A DNA stretch of 64,000 nt from Sulfitobacter sp. SK011 (GTDB lineage: Bacteria > Pseudomonadota > Alphaproteobacteria > Rhodobacterales > Rhodobacteraceae), in contig NZ_CP025803.1 of NCBI RefSeq assembly GCF_003352065.1, forward strand, positions 3,327,574 through 3,391,573. The letters are read 5' to 3'. The notes beneath the pieces are model-generated. The model searched no databases. It was not told the origin of the DNA and saw only the letters and a list, made by a program, of their open reading frames with translations. Positions 31 through 27,669 of this stretch are shown here, piece by piece. The first letter of the stretch is position 1, and each line of letters starts with the position of its first letter. Position numbers and translations under genes: made by a program.

Positions 31-1806
31 GTGGCGTTGACCTCGCCACCCGAGCCTGACCGCAGAACGCAAACGTCTGCGGCACGGCAACTGCTTTGCC
101 TCGCAATCGTCGACGTGGTCGGTTTCTCTGCCATGATGCGTGCCGACGAAGAAGGGACGTTTCATCGCTGGACGGGGCTGCGCGAAGAATTGATATTGCC
201 GCTATTGGCATCTCATGGCGGTGTTTTGGTCAACACCACAGGCGATGGCATCTTCGCGACATTCACAAACCCTGTAGACGGCGTGCAATGGAGTCGCGAG
301 CTTCAGTCCAAGGCAAGACAACGCCGTCAGGGGCTTTCGATGCGGGTTTCCCTGAATTACTGCACGGTCTTGCGCGATGGCAAGGATCTGCTGGGTGATG
401 GCATAAATGTCGCCGCCCGATTGCAGGAACTCACACCGACGGGCGGCGTGGTTCTGACCCAGTCCGTGCAGGAAGAAATCAAAGATCACGCCGAATTTGA
501 AACGCGCCCGTTTGGTCCCGTCACCCTGCGTAACATTGACGGCGATGTGATGGCCTTTGAACTGATGACTGACGGGCGCCACCACAGCGAACCGGCACCC
601 GGCATCACCAAATTACCCTCAATAGCGGTGATGCCGTTTGTGAACTTGGGCGGGCAGGAAAAGGACGACTATCTCGGTGCCGGCATCGTCGAGGACATTG
701 TCGTATCCCTTTCGAGCCACGAAGACCTGACCGTCATTTCGCGATCTTCAACGCTGGCATTTGCACGACAGCCGATAGATCCAAAGGCCGTTGGCGAAGT
801 TCTGGATGTCCGTTACCTGATCACTGGCACAATTCGTCGGTCAAACGACCGCATCCGTATTTCCGCCCAGTTGCTTGACGCGGGTGCCGGACAGCAGCTC
901 ACCAGCCTGCGGCGGGACTTTGAAGTAAAAGATATCTTTGCTGTTCAGGACGAGATTGTCGAAACAACGCTGACCCATTTATTGCCGGGAGTGCATTCGG
1001 CCGAACGACGCAGGGTCTTTCGAAAATGGCCCTCGTCCCTGTCTGGCTACGACAACTACCTCAAAGCCCTCGATCTGATCGGCAGTCTGCAACGAATACA
1101 GTTCGAGAGCGCCCTAAGCCATCTCAATCAAGCCATCAAAGCCGATCCGGGGTTTTCTTTGCCCTTGGCCTGGGCGGCACGGTGGTACAGTCTGAACGTT
1201 GGACAGGGTTGGTCCAAAGATCCTCAAGACGATTCAGCCAAAGCAGCCGAACTTGCCATGCGCGCTATTCGTATCGACGAAAACAACGCGCTGGCGCAGG
1301 CAACCTACGGACACGTAAGATCGTATTTGTTCGGCGATTTCGAAACCGCGATCACCCACATGGAACACGCGACCGAAATCAATCCCAACAGTTCAACCGC
1401 ATGGCTCTTGTCCAGTGTCACGCTATCCAGTCTCGGCCGGCATGAAGAAGCCATCGCAGCCGCCGAACGGTCACTGCGGCTGTCGCCATTTGATCAGTGG
1501 TTGTTCATTCACTACGCATTTCTGGGAATTGCGAATTACGATGCCGGAAATTACGAAAGAGCATTGATCTGGCTTTCCCGCGGCCTCGCTGAAAATCCCC
1601 GGTACACCAGCGCGCTGCGCACATTGGCGGTGACACAGATCGCTTTGGGAAATGGTGAAAAGGCGAACGAAGCAATCGCCCAACTTTTGGAACTGGAACC
1701 AAATTTTAATCTTTCGGCGTACGGGCGTACCCGAAGACTTTACAGCAACCCTGCGCAGGCGGACCTTTTTCGCGACCGTCTGCGTCAGGCTGGTGCTCCA
1801 CAGTAA
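31..1806 (+). CDS. Class III adenylate/guanylate cyclase with TolB-like and TPR regions
   Basis: Probable signalling cyclase forming a cyclic nucleotide. The class III catalytic domain covers about residues 20-180: first metal aspartate D28 in VDVVGFS, second D72 in GDGIF, and the transition-state pair N126/R130 in INVAAR. The position that usually holds the purine-selecting lysine (KTTGDG in many relatives) is N68 here, so substrate or activity may differ. A TolB-N-like domain follows at about 195-330 (LPSIAVMPF start), then TPR-like helices to the end; this architecture is common in rhizobial and rhodobacterial cyclases. The GTG at 31 is used as start, but the frame is open back to base 1, so the gene may begin upstream of the window. 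The next gene starts 29 bp downstream. Confidence 0.85.
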   Translation: MALTSPPEPDRRTQTSAARQLLCLAIVDVVGFSAMMRADEEGTFHRWTGLREELILPLLASHGGVLVNTTGDGIFATFTNPVDGVQWSRELQSKARQRRQGLSMRVSLNYCTVLRDGKDLLGDGINVAARLQELTPTGGVVLTQSVQEEIKDHAEFETRPFGPVTLRNIDGDVMAFELMTDGRHHSEPAPGITKLPSIAVMPFVNLGGQEKDDYLGAGIVEDIVVSLSSHEDLTVISRSSTLAFARQPIDPKAVGEVLDVRYLITGTIRRSNDRIRISAQLLDAGAGQQLTSLRRDFEVKDIFAVQDEIVETTLTHLLPGVHSAERRRVFRKWPSSLSGYDNYLKALDLIGSLQRIQFESALSHLNQAIKADPGFSLPLAWAARWYSLNVGQGWSKDPQDDSAKAAELAMRAIRIDENNALAQATYGHVRSYLFGDFETAITHMEHATEINPNSSTAWLLSSVTLSSLGRHEEAIAAAERSLRLSPFDQWLFIHYAFLGIANYDAGNYERALIWLSRGLAENPRYTSALRTLAVTQIALGNGEKANEAIAQLLELEPNFNLSAYGRTRRLYSNPAQADLFRDRLRQAGAPQ

Positions 1807-13247: not shown

Positions 13248-16200
13248 TCAGCGGCGATCCGGCCGGTCAAGATACCCGATCAGGCTCTGGATCAGTTTGA
13301 AACCCGTCCGTGCATCCGTTTCAAGAATAGACAGGAAATCATCAGCCTCGATACGCAGCAGGGTGATGTCACTGTCTGCACGCATGTCCAGACGCCGGGG
13401 ATCGTTCCGGATCAACCCCAACTCTCCTACAAGCGTGCCTTCGGTGGGATAGATGGCAAACGCCTCTTCTCCCGTTTCAGTACGCTCAATCAATGCGACA
13501 TTGCCTTCGTAAATCAGGAAAGCGCCATCGGGCAGGTCATTCTTGCGAAACACATACGATCCCGATTTGAAGGTGACCCAACGCGCACTAAACGCCAAGA
13601 GCCTGAGTTGTTGACGGCTGAGTTCGCGAAACAGCGGGGCGCGGCGCAACGCCTGTAATTTACGTTGCAGATCGCTTGTTTCCGGCGTCTGAACAGCGTC
13701 CTCGCCCTCTTGACCAACCGCCCTGAACTGTCCCTGACGCAATTCGATGTCACGGTCATGCAGGCCATCTTTCGGCGTCTCCGTTTCAAGCTGCAAGATG
13801 GTCGCGTCCGGCAGCAAGCTTCGAAATGTCGCCATTGTGCGGGTCCGTGCGGCAGGGTCATGGCTTGCCAATGCCCTGTCCAAAATCACCAAATCCGGTC
13901 CCTTTACCACCGCCTGAGCAATGCTGACCTGTTCAAGCACCTGCTGCGGCAAGTTCTTACCGCGCCGTGCGGTTGGCAGTTTATCGATCAAATCCATCAA
14001 GGTTGCGTGATCAACCTGCCCGTTCAGCACATCGACAACCACCCCTTTGATTTTCTCGCGGCGTGCCCGCGAGGTTGGCGCGATTTTTCCGAATATCAGG
14101 TTTTCAAGGGCGCTTATCCCAGGATGCCAAGCCGCCAAATCAAAGGCAACAAAGTCAGCGCTGAGAGATGAAGACGCATCGGCCGCTGCTTTTCGCGCAG
14201 CCACAACGGATGCCTTCAGGTCGTCTGAAAATACCCCATCAAGCTGTGCGGCAGCAATATTGACTGACAACGACAGAAAAAGCGCTTCGTCCGCACGCCG
14301 TTGGCGCGGCTTGGGCTGGGGCGACAATTCAGCCCTTTGCAGTGCCAGTTCAAGTTCCTTCATGGTCCCATCGGGCAGGCCAAGACGCTGAAACGGTACA
14401 TTTTGTGTTTCTACGGTATCGAAAACCTCAAGCAGGGTCTCGGCAATCACCTTGCCCTGCGCCAACACCGCATCGCGTAGTCCCAGGTCAGCCAGCAGCA
14501 CCTCAAACGCCGCTGCGGCCTTGGGGTCAAGCCAGCGCTTTTGGATTGCGGTTCCGCCCAGCAGGTTTTCCGGCAAGGTCAGCGCGTCCACATAAGTATC
14601 CGAGCCAAATCTCTGGACAGCGGTCATTAAATCCAGACGCTCAAGTTGCACCGCCACATGGGCCCGCGCGGCAACCAACGCTTCGAAAAAGGCAGCGTTC
14701 TGGGCCGCGTTCAGCGGATGATCCAGAACACGGGCCAGAAGCATCCGCTGGCCACCTGTCATCTCGATCAGCTCGCGCCAGCCGTCTTCTGCGCGCTTGA
14801 TGACATCCGCCGACACCTGCGCAGGATGCCATGCCGTCAACGCGCTATCGATGCTGTTTCCGCTGCGCTCTGCCTCGTCTCGCAAATTCCCCTGCAGCGC
14901 CTCGCTGGGCATTTGCCGCAAGGGCAGCATGACATTCTCACCCAGCGTTCCCTCAAAAATATGCGATGATGACGTCACATGCGCGATGCGCCCAACAATG
15001 GCCTGCTGCGACATGTCAGCCAAATTCACATCATCCCAAAGGACCTTGCCGGAATGCGCGGAAAGCTCTCTCATCAGCAAAAGCGCCAATGTCGTGCAAT
15101 CGCCGTCATCCTCTGCTGTCACGCAGGTCCAGCTTCCCGGTTCCAAGGTCAGCTCAGCTCCTGACAAGACATGCCTGCCATCACCATCTTCCAATTCCAC
15201 CCGGTCCAGCTTGATCGTTGGTGCCCCAGCATTTGTGGCAATCGGCTCAGCTTCTGTCGGCAGGGACTTCAGCAAATCAGCGGGCGCAAATCGGCGCACG
15301 ATCATGATGTAGCGTTGCGACACCTCCTGCACGGCGGTGTAATAGGTCAGCAGTTCCTTCCAGGGGCTCGACAGATCCTTGAACGCGGCGATTGCGGCGA
15401 CCAGCGCCCCAATCGTGAGCTGGCCGTTGATGACCAAAAGACCCCCGACGAGAAAGTAGAAAAACGGTGTCAGCTGAGTAAGGAAGTTATTGGTGAATTT
15501 CATGAAGTACTTGCGGTGATAGATTTCGAACCGGGTCTCAAAGAGTTTTCCGAGCCGCGCGCTCATCGCTGCCTGGCGGTACCGCCAGCCGCCATGCTGC
15601 CGCAAAACTGGTGCCCCTTCAGAAATCTCTCCGATTTCTGAAGACAGGCTGCGCATCTGCAAAATCCGACTGCGGTTCAGCACGTTGATTTTTGCCTGCA
15701 TCCGCGGGATCAGCCATGCCTGCACCGGAATAAGCGCCACTGCGGCTAAGCCGAACCAGACGTTTTGAACAAAGAGAAACAGCAGAATCGTGATCATTTG
15801 TCCCGCCTGCAGCAGCGGATTTGCAAATGCATCCCCCATGATCCCGCCAAGCGGCTCGGCCTCTGCCGTGACCATCGCCACAAGCTCGCCTTCGGACACG
15901 CGCGCCTGATAGCTTCGTGGAAAGCGCAGAATACGCCCCACCAGCGTATATCGAAACCGCCTGAGCAACCGTTCGGCCAAGACACCCTTCATGGTGTTGA
16001 CCCGCATCTTCAACAGCCCGTGCGCGATCACAGAGCCCAGAAACGCAAAACACAATGTCAGCAAGAGCGCCGTTTGTGAAATCTCAAACCCATAGAACAG
16101 GACCGCATCTGACTGAGCCCCGATGGCGTCATTGATGATCCGCTTTGGCAATTCCAACGTCAGATAGAGCAGCGGAAACAGCAGGAGCGTCACAAATACA

Positions 16201-16259
16201 AGGATGAATTGGTCGCGCCGGGAATGGTGCCAGATAAAAGCAATGAGGGATTTTTGCAT
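13248..16259 (-). CDS. ABC exporter-like protein with degenerate ATPase and C-terminal cyclic-nucleotide-binding domain
   Basis: A 1003-residue fusion. Residues 1-330 form a type I ABC exporter membrane domain with about six segments. From about 348 comes an ATPase-like region, but Walker A is lost (TAEDDGDCTT near 381-390, no lysine). A signature-like TGGQRMLLARVL lies at 501-512 and, after a long insertion, a second signature/Walker B-like stretch at 773-801 (VSIAQAVV, then LVILDRALASHD) with arginine where the catalytic glutamate should be. Residues 875-1000 form a CRP-like cyclic-nucleotide-binding domain (GELGLIRNDPRR as the phosphate-binding cassette). It probably cannot hydrolyse ATP itself. 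Role unknown; a cyclic-nucleotide-gated regulator or lipid-related membrane protein are possibilities. It converges on the aldehyde dehydrogenase gene. Confidence 0.75.
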   Translation of the reverse strand: MQKSLIAFIWHHSRRDQFILVFVTLLLFPLLYLTLELPKRIINDAIGAQSDAVLFYGFEISQTALLLTLCFAFLGSVIAHGLLKMRVNTMKGVLAERLLRRFRYTLVGRILRFPRSYQARVSEGELVAMVTAEAEPLGGIMGDAFANPLLQAGQMITILLFLFVQNVWFGLAAVALIPVQAWLIPRMQAKINVLNRSRILQMRSLSSEIGEISEGAPVLRQHGGWRYRQAAMSARLGKLFETRFEIYHRKYFMKFTNNFLTQLTPFFYFLVGGLLVINGQLTIGALVAAIAAFKDLSSPWKELLTYYTAVQEVSQRYIMIVRRFAPADLLKSLPTEAEPIATNAGAPTIKLDRVELEDGDGRHVLSGAELTLEPGSWTCVTAEDDGDCTTLALLLMRELSAHSGKVLWDDVNLADMSQQAIVGRIAHVTSSSHIFEGTLGENVMLPLRQMPSEALQGNLRDEAERSGNSIDSALTAWHPAQVSADVIKRAEDGWRELIEMTGGQRMLLARVLDHPLNAAQNAAFFEALVAARAHVAVQLERLDLMTAVQRFGSDTYVDALTLPENLLGGTAIQKRWLDPKAAAAFEVLLADLGLRDAVLAQGKVIAETLLEVFDTVETQNVPFQRLGLPDGTMKELELALQRAELSPQPKPRQRRADEALFLSLSVNIAAAQLDGVFSDDLKASVVAARKAAADASSSLSADFVAFDLAAWHPGISALENLIFGKIAPTSRARREKIKGVVVDVLNGQVDHATLMDLIDKLPTARRGKNLPQQVLEQVSIAQAVVKGPDLVILDRALASHDPAARTRTMATFRSLLPDATILQLETETPKDGLHDRDIELRQGQFRAVGQEGEDAVQTPETSDLQRKLQALRRAPLFRELSRQQLRLLAFSARWVTFKSGSYVFRKNDLPDGAFLIYEGNVALIERTETGEEAFAIYPTEGTLVGELGLIRNDPRRLDMRADSDITLLRIEADDFLSILETDARTGFKLIQSLIGYLDRPDRR

Positions 16260-17530: not shown

Positions 17531-18262
17531 TTACAATTTGTAACTCGGCAAAAGCTGAAACGCGTCTCGCAGGGCATCGCCCCAGCCCGATGCGATTTCC
17601 TGATAAATGGCATCGTCGCTTTTGATCCGCGTCGTGCGATCACAGGTGAAGGTGTCGTTTTCGTACACCTGAAGATCAAAGGGCAGACCGACGGACAGGT
17701 TCGATTTTACGGTGGAATCAAAAGACACAATCAACAGCTTTATTGCATCCGCAAAGTCCATTGCACGATCATAGGCCCGCACCAGAATGGGCTTGCCATA
17801 TTTGGTTTCGCCGATCTGAAAAAACGGTGTGTCGTCAGTTATCTCGATAAAATTGCCTTCGGGATAGACCATAAAGACAGTTGGCTTGCCGCCCTTGATC
17901 TGCCCGCCCACGATGATCGACGCCCCAAACTGATCATCCGAGGTCTGACCCGTTGGAGATGAGCTTGTGATCACCTCTTTCAAGGTCGATCCAACCAGCC
18001 GCGCCACCTGAAACATCGTTGGCAGACGCAGGATGTTTGGATCGCGGTCTTGTTCGGAAATGGAACGTTCTTCAAGCAGGCTGATCAGTGACTGCGTTGT
18101 CGCCAGATTGCCGGCGGTCATGATGGTGATGGCCCGTTCATCCGGGACCTGCCAGGAAAACATCTTCTTGCTCACAGCAAAGTTGTCCACGCCGGCGCTG
18201 GTGCGTGTGTCAGACATGAAAACCAGACCGCGATCCAGCCGCATGCCAATGCAGTAAGTCAT
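17531..18262 (-). CDS. Proteasome-type protease Anbu
   Basis: A 243-residue Ntn-hydrolase of the Anbu family, a bacterial proteasome/HslV relative. The N-terminus MTYCIGMRL gives Thr1 after Met removal; mature D17 (SDTRT) and lysine at K32 (or adjacent K31; SKKM) complete the proteasome-type site. It is the last gene of a four-gene operon with an ATP-grasp protein, an alpha-E protein and a transglutaminase-like protein, the context known for Anbu. Family members form helical or ring assemblies; the substrate is not known. The set suggests peptide ligation and cleavage of a small peptide or protein tag. Confidence 0.88.
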   Translation of the reverse strand: MTYCIGMRLDRGLVFMSDTRTSAGVDNFAVSKKMFSWQVPDERAITIMTAGNLATTQSLISLLEERSISEQDRDPNILRLPTMFQVARLVGSTLKEVITSSSPTGQTSDDQFGASIIVGGQIKGGKPTVFMVYPEGNFIEITDDTPFFQIGETKYGKPILVRAYDRAMDFADAIKLLIVSFDSTVKSNLSVGLPFDLQVYENDTFTCDRTTRIKSDDAIYQEIASGWGDALRDAFQLLPSYKL

Positions 18263-18296
18263 CTTTTTCTACCTAAAAGGATTCGACGTGATCTCT

Positions 18297-19094
18297 TTAC
18301 TGCTGAACTTGCACAGATACCATCAATGTCTCATCCGCCGAACCCATGCGCAAACCTTCGATCGGTGCGGCATCCCGGGCATCGCGTCCAATGGCGATAC
18401 GCGTATACCTTTCGTCCGGCGAAACCCCGTTTGAAATGTCAAACCCGACCCAACCCAGGTCATTCACATAGGCCTCTGCCCAGGCATGGGTTGCGTCCTG
18501 TTCGACCCGGTCGTTGATCATCAGATAGCCACTGACATAGCGCGCCGGGATACCAGAAAGCCGCACCGCAGTCAGAAAAACCTGTGCATGGTCCTGACAC
18601 ACACCGCGGCTGCCCTGCAATGCAACTTCGGCAGGGGTGTTCACATCGGTCCGGCCAAACTCATAGGGAAGTGCCTTGAGGATGGCGGCGGACAGGCCGT
18701 GCAGACCGCTCAACTGCGCCCCCGTGTCGCCCGTGATGCGCGGCAACGCCTTGATCGCGTCGCCCGCTGTTGTCAGCACCGTTGGCTGAAGAAAATGCCA
18801 CAAAGGCGCGCGCCCGAAAACCTGCCCCAGAATGCCAGTGCTGTTGAGGGTCTCGACCATTCCACTTGCGCGAATGGTCAGCTTTTGCGCGCCACGTTCG
18901 ATACTGACCAGATCAACATGATTGCCGTAATGATCGGTATAGCTGGTCTCGATCTTGCCACCCGCGATTTCGACCGCCCAGTTGGGCACATTCTGCATGC
19001 TTGACGGTAAGGGCCGCAGCCGCACTTTTTGCAACGCGTAATCAACCGGGGCATCATAGGCATATTCGGTTGTATGACTGATCTGAAGTTCCAT
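18297..19094 (-). CDS. Transglutaminase-like cysteine protease family protein
   Basis: A 265-residue protein with an N-terminal beta domain (bacterial transglutaminase-like N, about 1-80) and a papain-like transglutaminase core. The triad is C166 (SRGVCQDHA), H203 (ATHAWAEAY) and D219 (WVGFDISNG). No signal peptide is seen, so it is probably cytoplasmic. In bacteria such proteins usually act as peptidases or amide-transfer enzymes. It directly precedes Anbu (34-bp gap) and is adjacent to the alpha-E gene with no intergenic base, so the three are cotranscribed. Confidence 0.88.
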   Translation of the reverse strand: MELQISHTTEYAYDAPVDYALQKVRLRPLPSSMQNVPNWAVEIAGGKIETSYTDHYGNHVDLVSIERGAQKLTIRASGMVETLNSTGILGQVFGRAPLWHFLQPTVLTTAGDAIKALPRITGDTGAQLSGLHGLSAAILKALPYEFGRTDVNTPAEVALQGSRGVCQDHAQVFLTAVRLSGIPARYVSGYLMINDRVEQDATHAWAEAYVNDLGWVGFDISNGVSPDERYTRIAIGRDARDAAPIEGLRMGSADETLMVSVQVQQ

Positions 19095-20036
19095 CTAACC
19101 AATAAACCTGTAATCACGTTCAATCTGTCCGGCGATATCCGCCGTTTTTTCCAGCACGCTTCCAACGAACTCGTGCAGGCCTTCTTCAAAAATCGAATTA
19201 ATATCTCTGTTCCTGAGGCGGGTGTTCAACGCATCCGCAAGCTCATGCGATGCCTCGCGACCGCCGTATTCCTCGGCAAGATGCGACAGGCATCCGACTA
19301 TCTGGCTCGCGCAATGCGACAATGATCGCGGCATGCGGCGATCAAGGATCAGGAACTCAGCGATGGCGGGCGCTGTAAAGTCATCCTCAACGGCCCAGCG
19401 AAAAGAACGGTGCGCGGAAACGGAGCGCAAAATCGTCTCCCATTGGACATTGTCCAGTCTGCTGCCAACGAAAGACGGCGACGGCAACAGCGAATAATAC
19501 TTCACGTCGATGATGCGCGCGGTGTTATCCATGCGTTCAATATACGTGCCAAGACGGCAGAAGTCATAGATATCATTGCGCAGCATGGTGCCATAAAGCG
19601 CACCGCGCACCAGCGCTGATTGTTGCCGAATGGTGGCGAGGACAGCGGGTAATTCAGTTTGCGGGATCGGCTCTTTCAGCAGATCGGTGAACAACATCCA
19701 GGTCTCGTTCACTGCCGACCAGACTTCGGTTGTCAGCGCAGTACGGACCAGCCGCGCATTGTCGCGTGCCGCCTTTATGACCGAGACGACTGAACTGGGG
19801 TTGGACAGGTCCCGCAGGAGGAAATCGACCACCTGCGCGCTGTCGTAGACATCATGCCCCGCCTCATAGCTTGCCTGCGCTGCAGACGTCACAATCACCG
19901 ACCGCCACTCCGCTTCCGCATTGGTGGACCGGGTCAATGCAATCCGAAACCCCGCCTCAATCAGGCGCGCAGTGTTTTCCGCCCGCTCCAGCGAACGAAA
20001 CATCCAATAAAGACCCCCTGCAGTTTTTCCCAGCAT
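19095..20036 (-). CDS. Alpha-E domain protein
   Basis: A 313-residue, mostly helical protein of the alpha-E family (COG2307). Typical are the start MLGKTAGGLYWMFRSLERAEN, arginines and glutamates along the helices, and the segment GTYIERMDNTARIIDVKY. No catalytic motif is known. The family is almost always encoded beside a circularly permuted ATP-grasp protein and a transglutaminase-like protein, as here; the start is 1 bp after the upstream stop codon. Function is unassigned; a scaffold for the ATP-grasp enzyme is an inference. Confidence 0.88.
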   Translation of the reverse strand: MLGKTAGGLYWMFRSLERAENTARLIEAGFRIALTRSTNAEAEWRSVIVTSAAQASYEAGHDVYDSAQVVDFLLRDLSNPSSVVSVIKAARDNARLVRTALTTEVWSAVNETWMLFTDLLKEPIPQTELPAVLATIRQQSALVRGALYGTMLRNDIYDFCRLGTYIERMDNTARIIDVKYYSLLPSPSFVGSRLDNVQWETILRSVSAHRSFRWAVEDDFTAPAIAEFLILDRRMPRSLSHCASQIVGCLSHLAEEYGGREASHELADALNTRLRNRDINSIFEEGLHEFVGSVLEKTADIAGQIERDYRFIG

Positions 20037-20037
20037 G

Positions 20038-21462
20038 TCAGTCTTCCAATACCCAAGTGTCTTTGGTGCCGCCGCCCTGGCTGGAATTTACAACCAAAGA
20101 GCCTTCTTTCAGTGCAACCCGCGTCAGACCACCAGGCGTGATGTTCACCCCCTTGGGCGAGACCAGCGCAAAGGGCCGCAAATCGACATGGCGCGGGGCC
20201 AGACCGCTTTCGCTGAAGATCGGCACAGTGGACAGCGCCAGCGTCGGTTGGGCGATATAGTTGGCAGGTCGTGCGCGCAGCTTGTCAGCAAAATCTGCCA
20301 GTTCTTTCTTGCTCGCCGCAGGCCCCACAAGCATGCCGTAGCCGCCCGAACCATGGACCTCTTTGACGACCAGATCAGCGAGATTATCGAGCACGTATTG
20401 AAGCCGATCAGGTTCAGAACACCGGTGCGTTTCAACGTTCTTCAGGATCGCCGGTTCGCCAGTGTAGAATTTAACAATTTCAGGGATATAGCTGTAGACC
20501 GCTTTGTCATCGGCAACGCCCGTACCGGGCGCATTTGCAATTGCGATATTTCCCGCGCGGTAGACATCCATGATCCCCGGCACGCCCAGCATGGACGCGG
20601 GGTTAAAGGTCAGCGGGTCAAGATATTCGTCATCCACCCTGCGATAAATTACGTCGATGGTTTTGTACCCACGGGTCGTCCGCATGGCGATATGACCATC
20701 AACGACCCGCAGATCATGCCCTTCGACCAGTTCGACACCCATTTGATCGGCGAGAAAGCTGTGCTCGTAATATGCCGAGTTGTGAATTCCCGGCGTCAGC
20801 ACAACAACTCGTGGGCGACCCGAACAAGATGTTGGCGCACAAGCCTCAAGCGAGCGGCGCAGGTTCTTGGGATAGTCACTGACCGGTTGCACCTTGATGC
20901 TGCTGAAAAGTTCCGGAAACATCTGCAGCATCGTTTCGCGGTTTTCCAACATATAACTGACGCCAGACGGCGTGCGTGCATTATCCTCCAGCACGAAAAA
21001 ATCGTCTTCGCCTGTGCGCACAATGTCGGTCCCGACAATATGCGTATAGACGCCACCCGGCGGAGTGAAATCGATCATCTGGGGCAAGAAGGCATCGTTC
21101 TGCGCTATCAATTCGGTTGGGATGATGCCCGCGCGCAAGATCTCCTGACGGTTATAAATGTCATGCAGAAATGCGTTGATCGCAACGACCCGCTGTTCGA
21201 TCCCTCTGGACAATTTCGTCCATTCGCGTCCCGACAATATCCGCGGCACCAGATCAAAGGGGATCAGCCGCTCTTCGGCATCACTTTGCCCATAGACGTT
21301 AAAGGTAATCCCGGTGCGGCGGAAAAAGGCTTCGGCCTCGTGTGATTTCTTCGCCAGACGCTCATTGTTCTGACCGGAAAACCAGGTGTTGTATTCCCCA
21401 TAGGGCGGGCGGGCGGCACAATTGCTGTGCATTTCGCTGAAAAAAGAGGTGGGTTTGACCAT
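20038..21462 (-). CDS. Circularly permuted type 2 ATP-grasp protein
   Basis: A 474-residue protein of the circularly permuted ATP-grasp family (COG2308), expected to form amide or peptide bonds using ATP. Recognisable regions are RTGITFNVYG, IPFDLVPRIL, GIYTHIVGTDIVR-like PPGGVYTHIVGTD, LEDNARTPSGVSYMLENR and KEVHGSGGYGMLVGP, which should line the nucleotide site. First gene of the operon ending in Anbu. Its product may ligate a peptide that the transglutaminase-like and Anbu proteins trim, but that is inference. Confidence 0.88.
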   Translation of the reverse strand: MVKPTSFFSEMHSNCAARPPYGEYNTWFSGQNNERLAKKSHEAEAFFRRTGITFNVYGQSDAEERLIPFDLVPRILSGREWTKLSRGIEQRVVAINAFLHDIYNRQEILRAGIIPTELIAQNDAFLPQMIDFTPPGGVYTHIVGTDIVRTGEDDFFVLEDNARTPSGVSYMLENRETMLQMFPELFSSIKVQPVSDYPKNLRRSLEACAPTSCSGRPRVVVLTPGIHNSAYYEHSFLADQMGVELVEGHDLRVVDGHIAMRTTRGYKTIDVIYRRVDDEYLDPLTFNPASMLGVPGIMDVYRAGNIAIANAPGTGVADDKAVYSYIPEIVKFYTGEPAILKNVETHRCSEPDRLQYVLDNLADLVVKEVHGSGGYGMLVGPAASKKELADFADKLRARPANYIAQPTLALSTVPIFSESGLAPRHVDLRPFALVSPKGVNITPGGLTRVALKEGSLVVNSSQGGGTKDTWVLED

Positions 21463-25850: not shown

Positions 25851-27155
25851 TCAGTCGCCTTCTGCAAGTGACCCATGATCGACCGGCAAACCACTGGGGA
25901 CCGACACGGGAATGCCAAGCCGTCCCGTGGTCGCGGCAGCACCCGTCAGGCTGTGCAAAAAGGCCTCGATGTCTGCAATATCTTCTTCGGATATCGCCAC
26001 TGGCATAAGATCATTTGCCGCCGCCTGACGTGCCATTTCCAACCGATCATTCCAGACAACAAAGTCGATGGCGCTGATCGCAGGCGCATCGGGCAGTGCG
26101 GCCATGGCAGGCGTCCAGCGTGCGAATGATCCCGCGGGATCGACGTGATGGCGGATGATACCTGCAAGCGTCGGATACGCGCCGTTGTGCCCATAAGGTG
26201 CTGTCAACGCCACATTGCGTAACATTGGCGTGCGAAACCGGTACGCGTCTTCCAACACATCACTTTCACCCATCCGGCCAACATCGCGGATCATCGGATC
26301 AAACCGTCGTGTACGACCCGGCCCAAACGGCGGCAGGCGCAGCGCATGAAATGACTGATCGGAAAACAGCGGGCCCGCATGACATTTTGCACATCCGCCT
26401 TTGCCAAAGAACATGTCCTTGCCCCGTCGCGCCGCATCCGAAAGCGCCGCCCCATCACCCGCCAGAAACCGGTCATAGGGGCTATCGATGCTTTGCCATT
26501 CCGTGCCAATGAACGCAGCAAGGGCATTGGCTATGTCGACAATCGTGACGTCCTCGGCCTTGTCGATATGCGCGAAAGCATCGACAAACCGTGCACCATA
26601 ATCGCCTGTGACCCGCACGCGTTTTGCCAAAATCGGCCATGCCGCATCAATCCGGTCATGCACCGCACCTGCGATTTCATTTTCGCGCGGGTTACCGGCC
26701 ATCTCAAATTGCGCAACAAGGGGAAACACCGCTTGCGCAGCAAGCAAAGAGTTGAAACCTGTGGGCAGCCATTCCTCAGCCGGTGAATCAAAACCGCTGG
26801 GATAGGCATCCGAAACACTCAGCCGACCATCATGAAACATCACCGTCAGCCCTTTGGCCCCAAGGTTCCAAAGTCCGGGCGCATTGCGGGGGATGCGCTT
26901 TTTGATGAGGCTGGCACCTGTCCCGGCGGTCCGCCCCGCCCCCAGACCCTCACCCCCCTCACCAATGCCAAGCGACAGACCATCGCCTGTGCCAAGATCA
27001 GGATGGTGGCAGGTCGAACACGCAATATTCCTGTTGCCCGACAGGATTCTGTCGTAAAAGAGAAGCTGACCCAGAGCAGCCTGTTTGCTGTCAAACGGGA
27101 TGAAATCATCTGGCCCAATCTGCTGTTCGGTCTGTGCACTGACCGGGACCGCCAT
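25851..27155 (-). CDS. Di-haem cytochrome c peroxidase / MauG family protein (copy 1)
   Basis: A periplasmic c-type di-haem protein with both haem motifs: CSTCH near the N-terminus and CAKCH in the second half. Family segments are LGQLLFYDRILSGN, RNAPGLWNLG and FRTPMLRNVALTAPYGHNG. Members reduce peroxide (CcpA) or modify proteins (MauG). The only in-frame ATG near the N-terminus (27155) leaves just MAVPVSAQ before the mature protein, while a hydrophobic signal core (AHLLTLFCLMAV) continues upstream without ATG, GTG or TTG. The true start may be a rare codon such as CTG at 27176, next to the ATG of the divergent Sel1 gene. A paralogue is at 41236; both end in the same tail, GRLGIPxxVPSGL. Confidence 0.78.
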   Translation of the reverse strand: MAVPVSAQTEQQIGPDDFIPFDSKQAALGQLLFYDRILSGNRNIACSTCHHPDLGTGDGLSLGIGEGGEGLGAGRTAGTGASLIKKRIPRNAPGLWNLGAKGLTVMFHDGRLSVSDAYPSGFDSPAEEWLPTGFNSLLAAQAVFPLVAQFEMAGNPRENEIAGAVHDRIDAAWPILAKRVRVTGDYGARFVDAFAHIDKAEDVTIVDIANALAAFIGTEWQSIDSPYDRFLAGDGAALSDAARRGKDMFFGKGGCAKCHAGPLFSDQSFHALRLPPFGPGRTRRFDPMIRDVGRMGESDVLEDAYRFRTPMLRNVALTAPYGHNGAYPTLAGIIRHHVDPAGSFARWTPAMAALPDAPAISAIDFVVWNDRLEMARQAAANDLMPVAISEEDIADIEAFLHSLTGAAATTGRLGIPVSVPSGLPVDHGSLAEGD

Positions 27156-27176
27156 GAGACAGAAAAGAGTGAGCAG

Positions 27177-27647
27177 ATGCGCAAGATACTGATGGGCTTT
27201 CTGCTGATGGCGGCACCTGCCTTTGCTGACATCGAAGCGGCGCGCGATCTGATGGAGGCGGGTAAATTTGCCCAGGCCAAAGAGGCGCTGTGGCCAGCGG
27301 CGCGGTCCGGTAATGCGGACGCCGAAGAGTTGATCGGCGTGATGTACGCGATGGGCCTTGGCGTGCCGCGCGACGATCAGCGCGCCTTTGAATGGTATCT
27401 GCGCGCGTCCCTCAAGGGGCATCCCGGCGCGCAATCGGGAATCGGCTGGTACTACGAGGTTGGCCGCGGCATGCCCGCGCCCGATCTGGTCCGGGCTTAT
27501 ATGTGGTACACGCTGTCGGCGATTGGCGGCGATCCCGATGCCGCCATCAGTCTGGAAGAGGTGGTCAAAAAGATGACCCCCGAAGAGATCGAAAAAGCGC
27601 ATGTCCTGATCGCTGACTACAAGGTCTGGATGTATCCGTTTCGGTGA
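27177..27647 (+). CDS. Sel1-repeat (TPR-like) exported protein
   Basis: A 156-residue protein with a signal peptide (MRKILMGFLLMAAPAFA) and two to three Sel1-like repeats: ARDLMEAGKFAQAKEALWPAA, GNADAEELIGVMYAMGLGVP, and HPGAQSGIGWYYEVGRGMP followed by YMWYTLSA. Such repeats bind protein partners in the periplasm. A longer frame reaching back to 26832 is antisense to the peroxidase gene and rejected; the signal peptide fixes the start at 27177. It is divergent from and almost touching the peroxidase gene, so the two may share control. A terminator hairpin follows. Confidence 0.8.
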   Translation: MRKILMGFLLMAAPAFADIEAARDLMEAGKFAQAKEALWPAARSGNADAEELIGVMYAMGLGVPRDDQRAFEWYLRASLKGHPGAQSGIGWYYEVGRGMPAPDLVRAYMWYTLSAIGGDPDAAISLEEVVKKMTPEEIEKAHVLIADYKVWMYPFR

Positions 27648-27669
27648 TGGGTGCCCAACCACCGGTCAC

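Follow-up and report, generated by a model that had tools for sequence, protein, structure and literature searches.

A Sulfitobacter ABC-exporter fold with lost ATPase motifs, fused to a cyclic-nucleotide-binding domain and associated across alphaproteobacteria with a glycosyltransferase operon

The 64,000-nucleotide stretch of the Sulfitobacter sp. SK011 genome analyzed here (contig NZ_CP025803.1, positions 3,327,574 to 3,391,573; hereafter the window) encodes a protein in which an ATP-binding cassette (ABC) exporter fold devoid of its ATPase motifs is fused to a cyclic-nucleotide-binding (CNMP) domain. The gene for this pseudo-ABC exporter is a single open frame on the minus strand, running from window position 16259 to 13248, with an ATG start, 1003 codons and a TGA stop; all its features described below lie on the same strand. 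Its GC content at the three codon positions (63/42/65%) is as expected of a coding gene. An earlier note on this DNA had placed one gene with ABC-exporter and CNMP parts at 13248–16259, leaving the strand unstated, and both the reading frame and the Pfam matches agree with it. Pfam assigned ABC_membrane (PF00664) to residues 39–293 (46 bits) and cNMP_binding (PF00027) to residues 895–982 (61.8 bits, E = 6e-17). Between them, residues 369–506 gave a weak, barely significant match to ABC_tran (PF00005; 25.7 bits at a cut-off of 25).

The AlphaFold2 model of the protein, obtained with 52 homologues as input, had a mean predicted local distance difference test score (pLDDT) of 82.9 and a predicted template modelling score of 0.72; this and the other structure prediction reported here represent single chains. 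A fold search of PDB with this model returned the exporters TM287/288, TmrAB and Sav1866 as top matches (E-values from 1e-14 to 1e-12). The TM-scores were modest, which is expected if those structures lack any equivalent of a long insertion and of the CNMP domain. An exporter-type membrane domain followed by a nucleotide-binding domain (NBD) is the arrangement of type IV ABC exporters. The membrane domain comprises residues 1–330 (15270–16259) and is defined by the PF00664 match, the model, the fold matches and a hydropathy profile consistent with six transmembrane segments. It is also the most conserved part of the protein: among 53 fused homologues the mean pairwise identity is 72%, compared with 53% and 46% for the two halves of the NBD, 44% for the insertion and 53% for the CNMP domain. 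For an ordinary exporter from genomes of the same genus, the corresponding values are 71% for the membrane domain and 67% for the NBD; this control set is more closely related, and only the ratios should be compared. To the earlier note, too, the membrane part had looked intact.

The NBD is degenerate, with the Walker A lysine, the signature, the catalytic glutamate and the H-loop histidine all lost. Its N-terminal half (residues 347–452; 14904–15221) is recognizable from PF00005 and from a profile match of residues 340–453 to P-glycoprotein-type NBDs, and its C-terminal half (residues 723–850; 13710–14093) from a profile match of residues 722–870 to solved NBDs. Where the Walker A motif has been lost (residues 380–392, VTAEDDGDCTTLA; 15084–15122), alignment with relatives puts Cys388 at the lysine position; the glycine loop is gone and the GxxGxGK[ST] pattern is absent. 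None of the 53 aligned fused homologues has the lysine, which is replaced by Arg in 49, Leu in two, and Cys and Ala in one each. The Walker B motif (residues 790–795, LVILDR; 13875–13892) keeps Asp794 and has Arg795 in place of the catalytic glutamate, a residue retained in only 2 of the 53. Likewise, the H-loop histidine is Thr826 here (13782–13784) and occurs in none of the fused homologues. Missing Walker A lysine and an arginine for the catalytic glutamate had both been pointed out in the earlier note. It had also described two signature-like regions, and here the alignment points the other way. The first, MTGGQRMLLAR (residues 500–510; 14730–14762), is found in no other aligned homologue, the corresponding stretch being, for example, EGMGSGTALFRR, and we consider its likeness to an ABC signature to be due to chance. 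The true signature position, residues 769–777, reads NLPQQVLEQ in this copy, as opposed to LSxxQRQK in relatives; the degenerate signature itself (LPQQVLEQ, residues 770–777) lies at 13929–13952, and an LSGGQ sequence is lacking.

In ABC proteins, one ATP site is made up of Walker A and B of one NBD and the signature of the other (PMC7756269). With both Walker A and the signature lost here, pairing of the protein with itself or with a normal partner would leave every site incomplete, and neither type of dimer should be able to hydrolyse ATP at a complete site. From these substitutions we infer that the protein has no ATPase activity.

Could such extensive loss simply reflect decay of a normal exporter into a pseudogene or relic? 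The window copy does belong to a rare sublineage, which it forms with a relative from Roseobacter sp. GAI101 and which was seen in 2 of the 58 genus genomes, and compared with the nearest relative its N-terminal NBD half is only 39% identical, whereas the membrane domain is 74% identical. Yet the 1003-codon frame is intact, a full-length relative exists at 54% identity, the CNMP domain is 68% identical to that of the nearest relative, and the motif losses are common to all fused homologues. The earlier note had proposed a survey of homologues for the degenerate motifs, on the grounds that relatives with intact Walker motifs might reveal simple decay. The fused homologues in our survey gave no such sign: the Walker A lysine is missing from every one of the 53, they keep their full length and their membrane domain is the best-conserved part. 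Conservation therefore already contradicts the pseudogene explanation, and we regard it as very improbable.

Matching of a family profile to solved ABC proteins produced two separate pieces, approximately 340–453 and 722–870, indicating that a single NBD has been opened between the Q-loop and the signature. The family-specific insertion of about 270 residues thus occupies residues 453–722 (14094–14903), with the Q-loop region before it and the signature helix after it. The earlier note had recognized a long insertion but had put it at about 512–773, limits that the two-piece match does not favor. Residues 420–765 were modeled by AlphaFold2 with a pLDDT of 87, but the insertion has neither a Pfam match nor a fold match in PDB (best E-value 0.8). 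It contains two related units, R2 (residues 528–612; 14424–14678) and R3 (residues 679–760; 13980–14225), the latter holding the sequence ALENLIFGK. Both follow the same order of elements, reproduced in the model: a long helix, a strand, an ENLL-type (ENLLFG-type) helix, a strand and two helices. Their relationship is strongly supported by hhalign (probability 98.9%, E = 3.5e-17). A third element, R1, is part of the NBD itself and consists of the Q-loop strand and EN helix (residues 425–446; 14922–14987), as judged from hhalign and the model. Its alignments with R2 and with R3 reached probabilities of 89–90%, making kinship suggestive but not proven. From these alignments it appears likely that the insertion arose by tandem growth out of the NBD's own Q-loop/helical part. 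We also considered a second ABC NBD hidden inside the insertion, but the split match of a single NBD, the lack of Pfam and PDB matches and the presence of two related tandem units led us to reject it.

The CNMP domain spans residues 859–997 (13269–13685), as seen from PF00027 and the model, and it matches cGMP/cAMP kinase and SthK domains. Its phosphate-binding cassette, identified by alignment (GELGLIRNDPR, residues 945–955; 13395–13427), has the Gly-Glu ... Arg pattern of the fold, with Gly945, Glu946 and Arg955 all present. Gly945 and Arg955 are invariant in the 53 fused homologues, and Glu946 is found in 32, with Asp in the other 21. The earlier description of this region as a complete CRP-like domain holds, with the qualification that a DNA-binding domain is missing. 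Pfam detected no helix-turn-helix and the protein stops at residue 1003, just past the CNMP helix, which sets it apart from CRP/FNR transcription factors. With Glu946 and Arg955 retained, cyclic-nucleotide sensing by this protein is plausible. A competing possibility is that the domain binds another ligand, such as guanosine tetraphosphate (ppGpp), or none, and senses something else or serves dimerization. HetC, a published fusion of a CNMP domain and an ABC exporter, does bind ppGpp in vitro (PMC10986499); in Clade II paralogues Asp takes the place of Glu946, and residue 956 of this copy is Arg. These observations are countered by the retention of Glu946 and Arg955 here, by the textbook cassettes of stand-alone partner proteins and by adenylate cyclase genes in several of the gene clusters described below. 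On balance, we view a different ligand or none as a serious but unlikely alternative.

How widespread is this family? The host genome itself has three full-length members. Our genome sets were sampled draws and not complete collections; within them, matches were present in 54 of 58 genomes of the genus and in 31 of 150 genomes of the host's taxonomic family, there as full-length homologues and usually two per genome. With the insertion as the query, matches were found in 98 of 289 genomes of the class, and in the phylum sample every match fell within the class. Most members outside roseobacters have about 880–910 residues and lack the CNMP domain. Among 30 alphaproteobacterial loci from outside roseobacters, taken with their flanks, a separate CNMP gene lies directly downstream on the same strand in 27, two (L133 and L169) have the fused form and in one (L170) no CNMP gene was found. 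In 26 of the 27 cases, no more than about 130 bases separate the CNMP gene from the end of the ABC match. Here, fused or separate status was judged from profile coverage and tblastn, and gene order and spacing refer to tblastn ends and not to mapped starts. The stand-alone CNMP partners mostly have GE[IM]AILCDVPRTATV-like cassettes. The fused form also occurs in Azospirillum B510 and A. lipoferum. In a tree built from the membrane domain only, 27 of 28 fused rows form one group (SH-aLRT support 97), with L133 apart, suggesting one main fusion event and perhaps a second. Descent of the fused gene from an ancestral pair, an ABC protein and a separate CNMP protein, is the best explanation of this pattern. 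Two side observations concern the genomic setting of family members. The Clade II paralogue of roseobacters has a conserved position beside accD-like and folC-like genes (L127, L143, L144). At another locus (L137:4334-8540), a DUF3095 gene (PF11294) and a gene for a metallo-beta-lactamase-fold protein are located near the ABC–CNMP pair.

The 34 separate, two-gene members show that motif loss was stepwise across the family, the distant relatives keeping parts of the motifs. Ser or Thr following the Walker A lysine is the Mg ligand in normal NBDs; in 30 of the 34 this residue is Asp or Glu. The lysine is kept in 19 and is Arg in 10, the Walker B Asp has become Asn or Ser in 24, and the catalytic glutamate is kept in 19. 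One member (L131) is nearly canonical, with GNSGKT, LSGAQKQ, VLDEATS and the H-loop histidine. Across the whole set, an acidic residue mostly stands at exactly one of two positions, the one after the Walker A lysine and that of the Walker B Asp; this pattern tracks the main branches and does not constitute independent evidence. It may be that an acidic side chain was exchanged between these positions, as a charge swap, in the two-gene NBDs (L129–L174). Judging by the motifs, the use of ATP probably changed throughout the family and disappeared in the fused branch.

The same relatives provide an argument for continued ATP-driven transport by the protein, through a non-canonical site or as a heterodimer with a catalytic partner, with the CNMP domain having only a modulating role. 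Its nearest folds, TM287/288 and TmrAB, are exporters with degenerate sites that are active as heterodimers, and the degenerate site of ABCG5/G8 likewise has Arg for the Walker A lysine (PMC7756269). However, in this protein and the fused family Walker A and the signature are lost together, so that no partner could complete a site. Furthermore, no canonical ABC exporter gene adjoins the window gene, an observation restricted to the local neighborhood, as a partner may be encoded elsewhere in the genome. ATP-dependent transport by the fused protein therefore seems unlikely to us.

A clue to function comes from a recurrent genomic association. The fetched flanks of 24 of the 30 loci outside roseobacters include a gene for the glycosyltransferase GTd, in most cases within a divergent operon with the order GTd-GTc-GTa-GTb followed by a polysaccharide-deacetylase-like gene (PDA, a label assigned from sequence, there being no Pfam match). 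In many loci an Opp-type importer gene comes after the operon, an association encountered in Azospirillum, in rhizobia and at other loci. The host genome has the GTd-GTc-GTa-GTb-PDA operon at genome positions 3422516–3428527, about 80 kb from the fusion gene, in a region (L213; 3412500–3431500) where it is preceded by an Opp-type importer with two NBDs and a large binding protein. In the class-wide set of 289 genomes, 91 have both the ABC family and GTd, 7 only the ABC family, 2 only GTd and 189 neither. In the 150 genomes of the taxonomic family, GTd is present in all 31 genomes that have the ABC protein, with GTd alone in 10 (5 of them with a strong score) and neither in 109. The Fisher p-values (7e-64 and 9e-24, respectively) ignore ancestry and are not to be taken at face value. 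The stronger point is that co-occurrence survives physical separation, since the two genes are unlinked in the genomes of the taxonomic family. Some clusters also include a cyclase: that of Rhizobium etli CIAT 652 comprises an adenylate cyclase gene and genes named redA and redB, and that of Sinorhizobium meliloti R28 a cyclase-domain gene.

Within the window, the earlier note had drawn attention to a class III cyclase about 11 kb from the fusion gene, for which the evidence proved weak. The open reading frame concerned (31–1806, plus strand), which continues upstream of the window, is part of a 643-residue TPR/FlgO-like protein with cyclase-like N-terminal motifs visible by eye. Neither it nor the 643-residue version matches PF00211 at E ≤ 0.001. 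A cyclase-like neighbor would in any case be unremarkable, since PF00211 has 23 hits in the host genome, of which the closest to the fusion gene is about 20 kb away; we therefore discarded a link to this frame. The remaining local neighbors (an aldehyde dehydrogenase, LysR, a flavodoxin and an Anbu-type cluster) were rejected as partners because none is kept beside homologues. Two other features of the window deserve mention in their own right. Four adjoining genes at 17531–21462 (minus strand), for a proteasome-fold protein of 243 residues, a transglutaminase-like protein, Alpha-E and a circularly permuted ATP-grasp protein, look like an Anbu-type proteasome cluster. A MauG/di-haem peroxidase-like protein of 603 residues with a GTG start is encoded at 25851–27662 (minus strand).

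Taken together, these results lead us to favor, with about an even chance of being right, a protein that uses the ABC-exporter fold without ATP hydrolysis, is controlled by its C-terminal CNMP domain and serves a surface-glycan pathway. The fold would presumably be dimeric, and cAMP or cGMP would be supplied by a subset of the genome's numerous class III cyclases. The nucleotide would enter the Glu946/Arg955 pocket, and the resulting movement of the CNMP domain would be relayed through the enlarged, ATP-independent NBD scaffold to set the state of the conserved membrane domain. The output might be gating of the movement of a lipid-linked sugar product, or control of membrane enzymes, for the pathway of the four-glycosyltransferase operon. 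Constraint is strongest in the membrane domain and in the pocket residues Gly945 and Arg955. The idea of a transporter fold turned into a cyclic-nucleotide sensor goes back to the earlier note; motif loss across the fused homologues and the retained pocket residues lend it partial support, while the first signature and the local cyclase no longer contribute to it. That note had not covered the ancestral two-gene arrangement, the co-occurrence with the glycosyltransferase operon or the tandem units of the insertion.

Several observations weigh against this interpretation. The co-occurrence statistics are inflated by shared ancestry, the glycosyltransferase operon does not adjoin the fusion gene in roseobacters, and only 3 of the 30 loci have cyclase homologues close to the pair. 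Given the Asp of Clade II paralogues and, in this copy, Arg956 where a small residue is usual, the ligand or its affinity may differ. The ancestor may have used ATP, given that roughly half of the two-gene members retain the Walker A lysine and the catalytic glutamate and that at least one, L131, is nearly canonical. Finally, we found no binding, ATPase or transport data for any family member in the open-access literature.

ABC exporters are defined by their use of ATP, and here is a lineage that lacks the ATPase motifs, has a nearly frozen membrane domain and is paired with or fused to a putative cyclic-nucleotide sensor. It represents an old design that has been maintained across alphaproteobacteria and has apparently gone undescribed. 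A broader proposal, to which we would give somewhat less than an even chance, is a class-wide signaling-transport module in which a cyclic nucleotide drives or gates an exporter fold independent of ATP, whose NBD has been remodelled by tandem units akin to its Q-loop/helical region; this fold would directly control the synthesis or membrane passage of a surface glycan produced by a dedicated glycosyltransferase operon. A maintained lineage of this kind would offer a clear example, in bacteria, of a pump converted into a device gated by a ligand, and a candidate membrane target for cAMP or cGMP in alphaproteobacteria, which can have many cyclases. A function could then also be assigned to a widespread, apparently unstudied glycosyltransferase operon of rhizobia, azospirilla and roseobacters.

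Known systems share some of these properties. The type IV degenerate-site exporters TM287/288, TmrAB, TAP and BmrCD are alike in membrane domain, fold and degenerate NBD motifs, but keep one complete composite site in the heterodimer, whereas here Walker A, signature, catalytic glutamate and H-loop are all lost in one polypeptide; nor do they have the insertion of about 270 residues or the CNMP domain. SUR1/SUR2 and CFTR put the ABC exporter fold to regulatory or gating use instead of classical pumping; they bind ATP, keep a working site and have no CNMP domain. To our knowledge, they are related to the fusion protein only through the superfamily. The channels SthK and MloK1 (Mll3241) resemble it in having a membrane domain followed by a homologous C-terminal CNMP domain, but their membrane domain is an unrelated channel and they have no NBD. 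In the open-access literature on the protein, on Rhizobium redA/redB and on CNMP–ABC fusions, HetC of Nostoc PCC 7120 was the sole relevant case. It, too, is an ABC exporter fused to a CNMP domain, but one that is located at the N-terminus and accompanied by a C39 peptidase, an essential working ATPase and ppGpp binding (PMC10986499). The Pfam scan of our protein gave no C39 peptidase match and its CNMP domain is C-terminal, placing it outside the HetC-type peptidase-containing exporters. Direct homologues are found in the two-gene loci of alphaproteobacteria, such as those of R. etli (RHECIAT_PA0000037/36) and S. meliloti (Q1M62_09075/09080), annotated only as an ABC transporter and a Crp/Fnr-like regulator. 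They share the same insertion and differ in that the CNMP protein is separate and, in many two-gene members, Walker A is partly kept.

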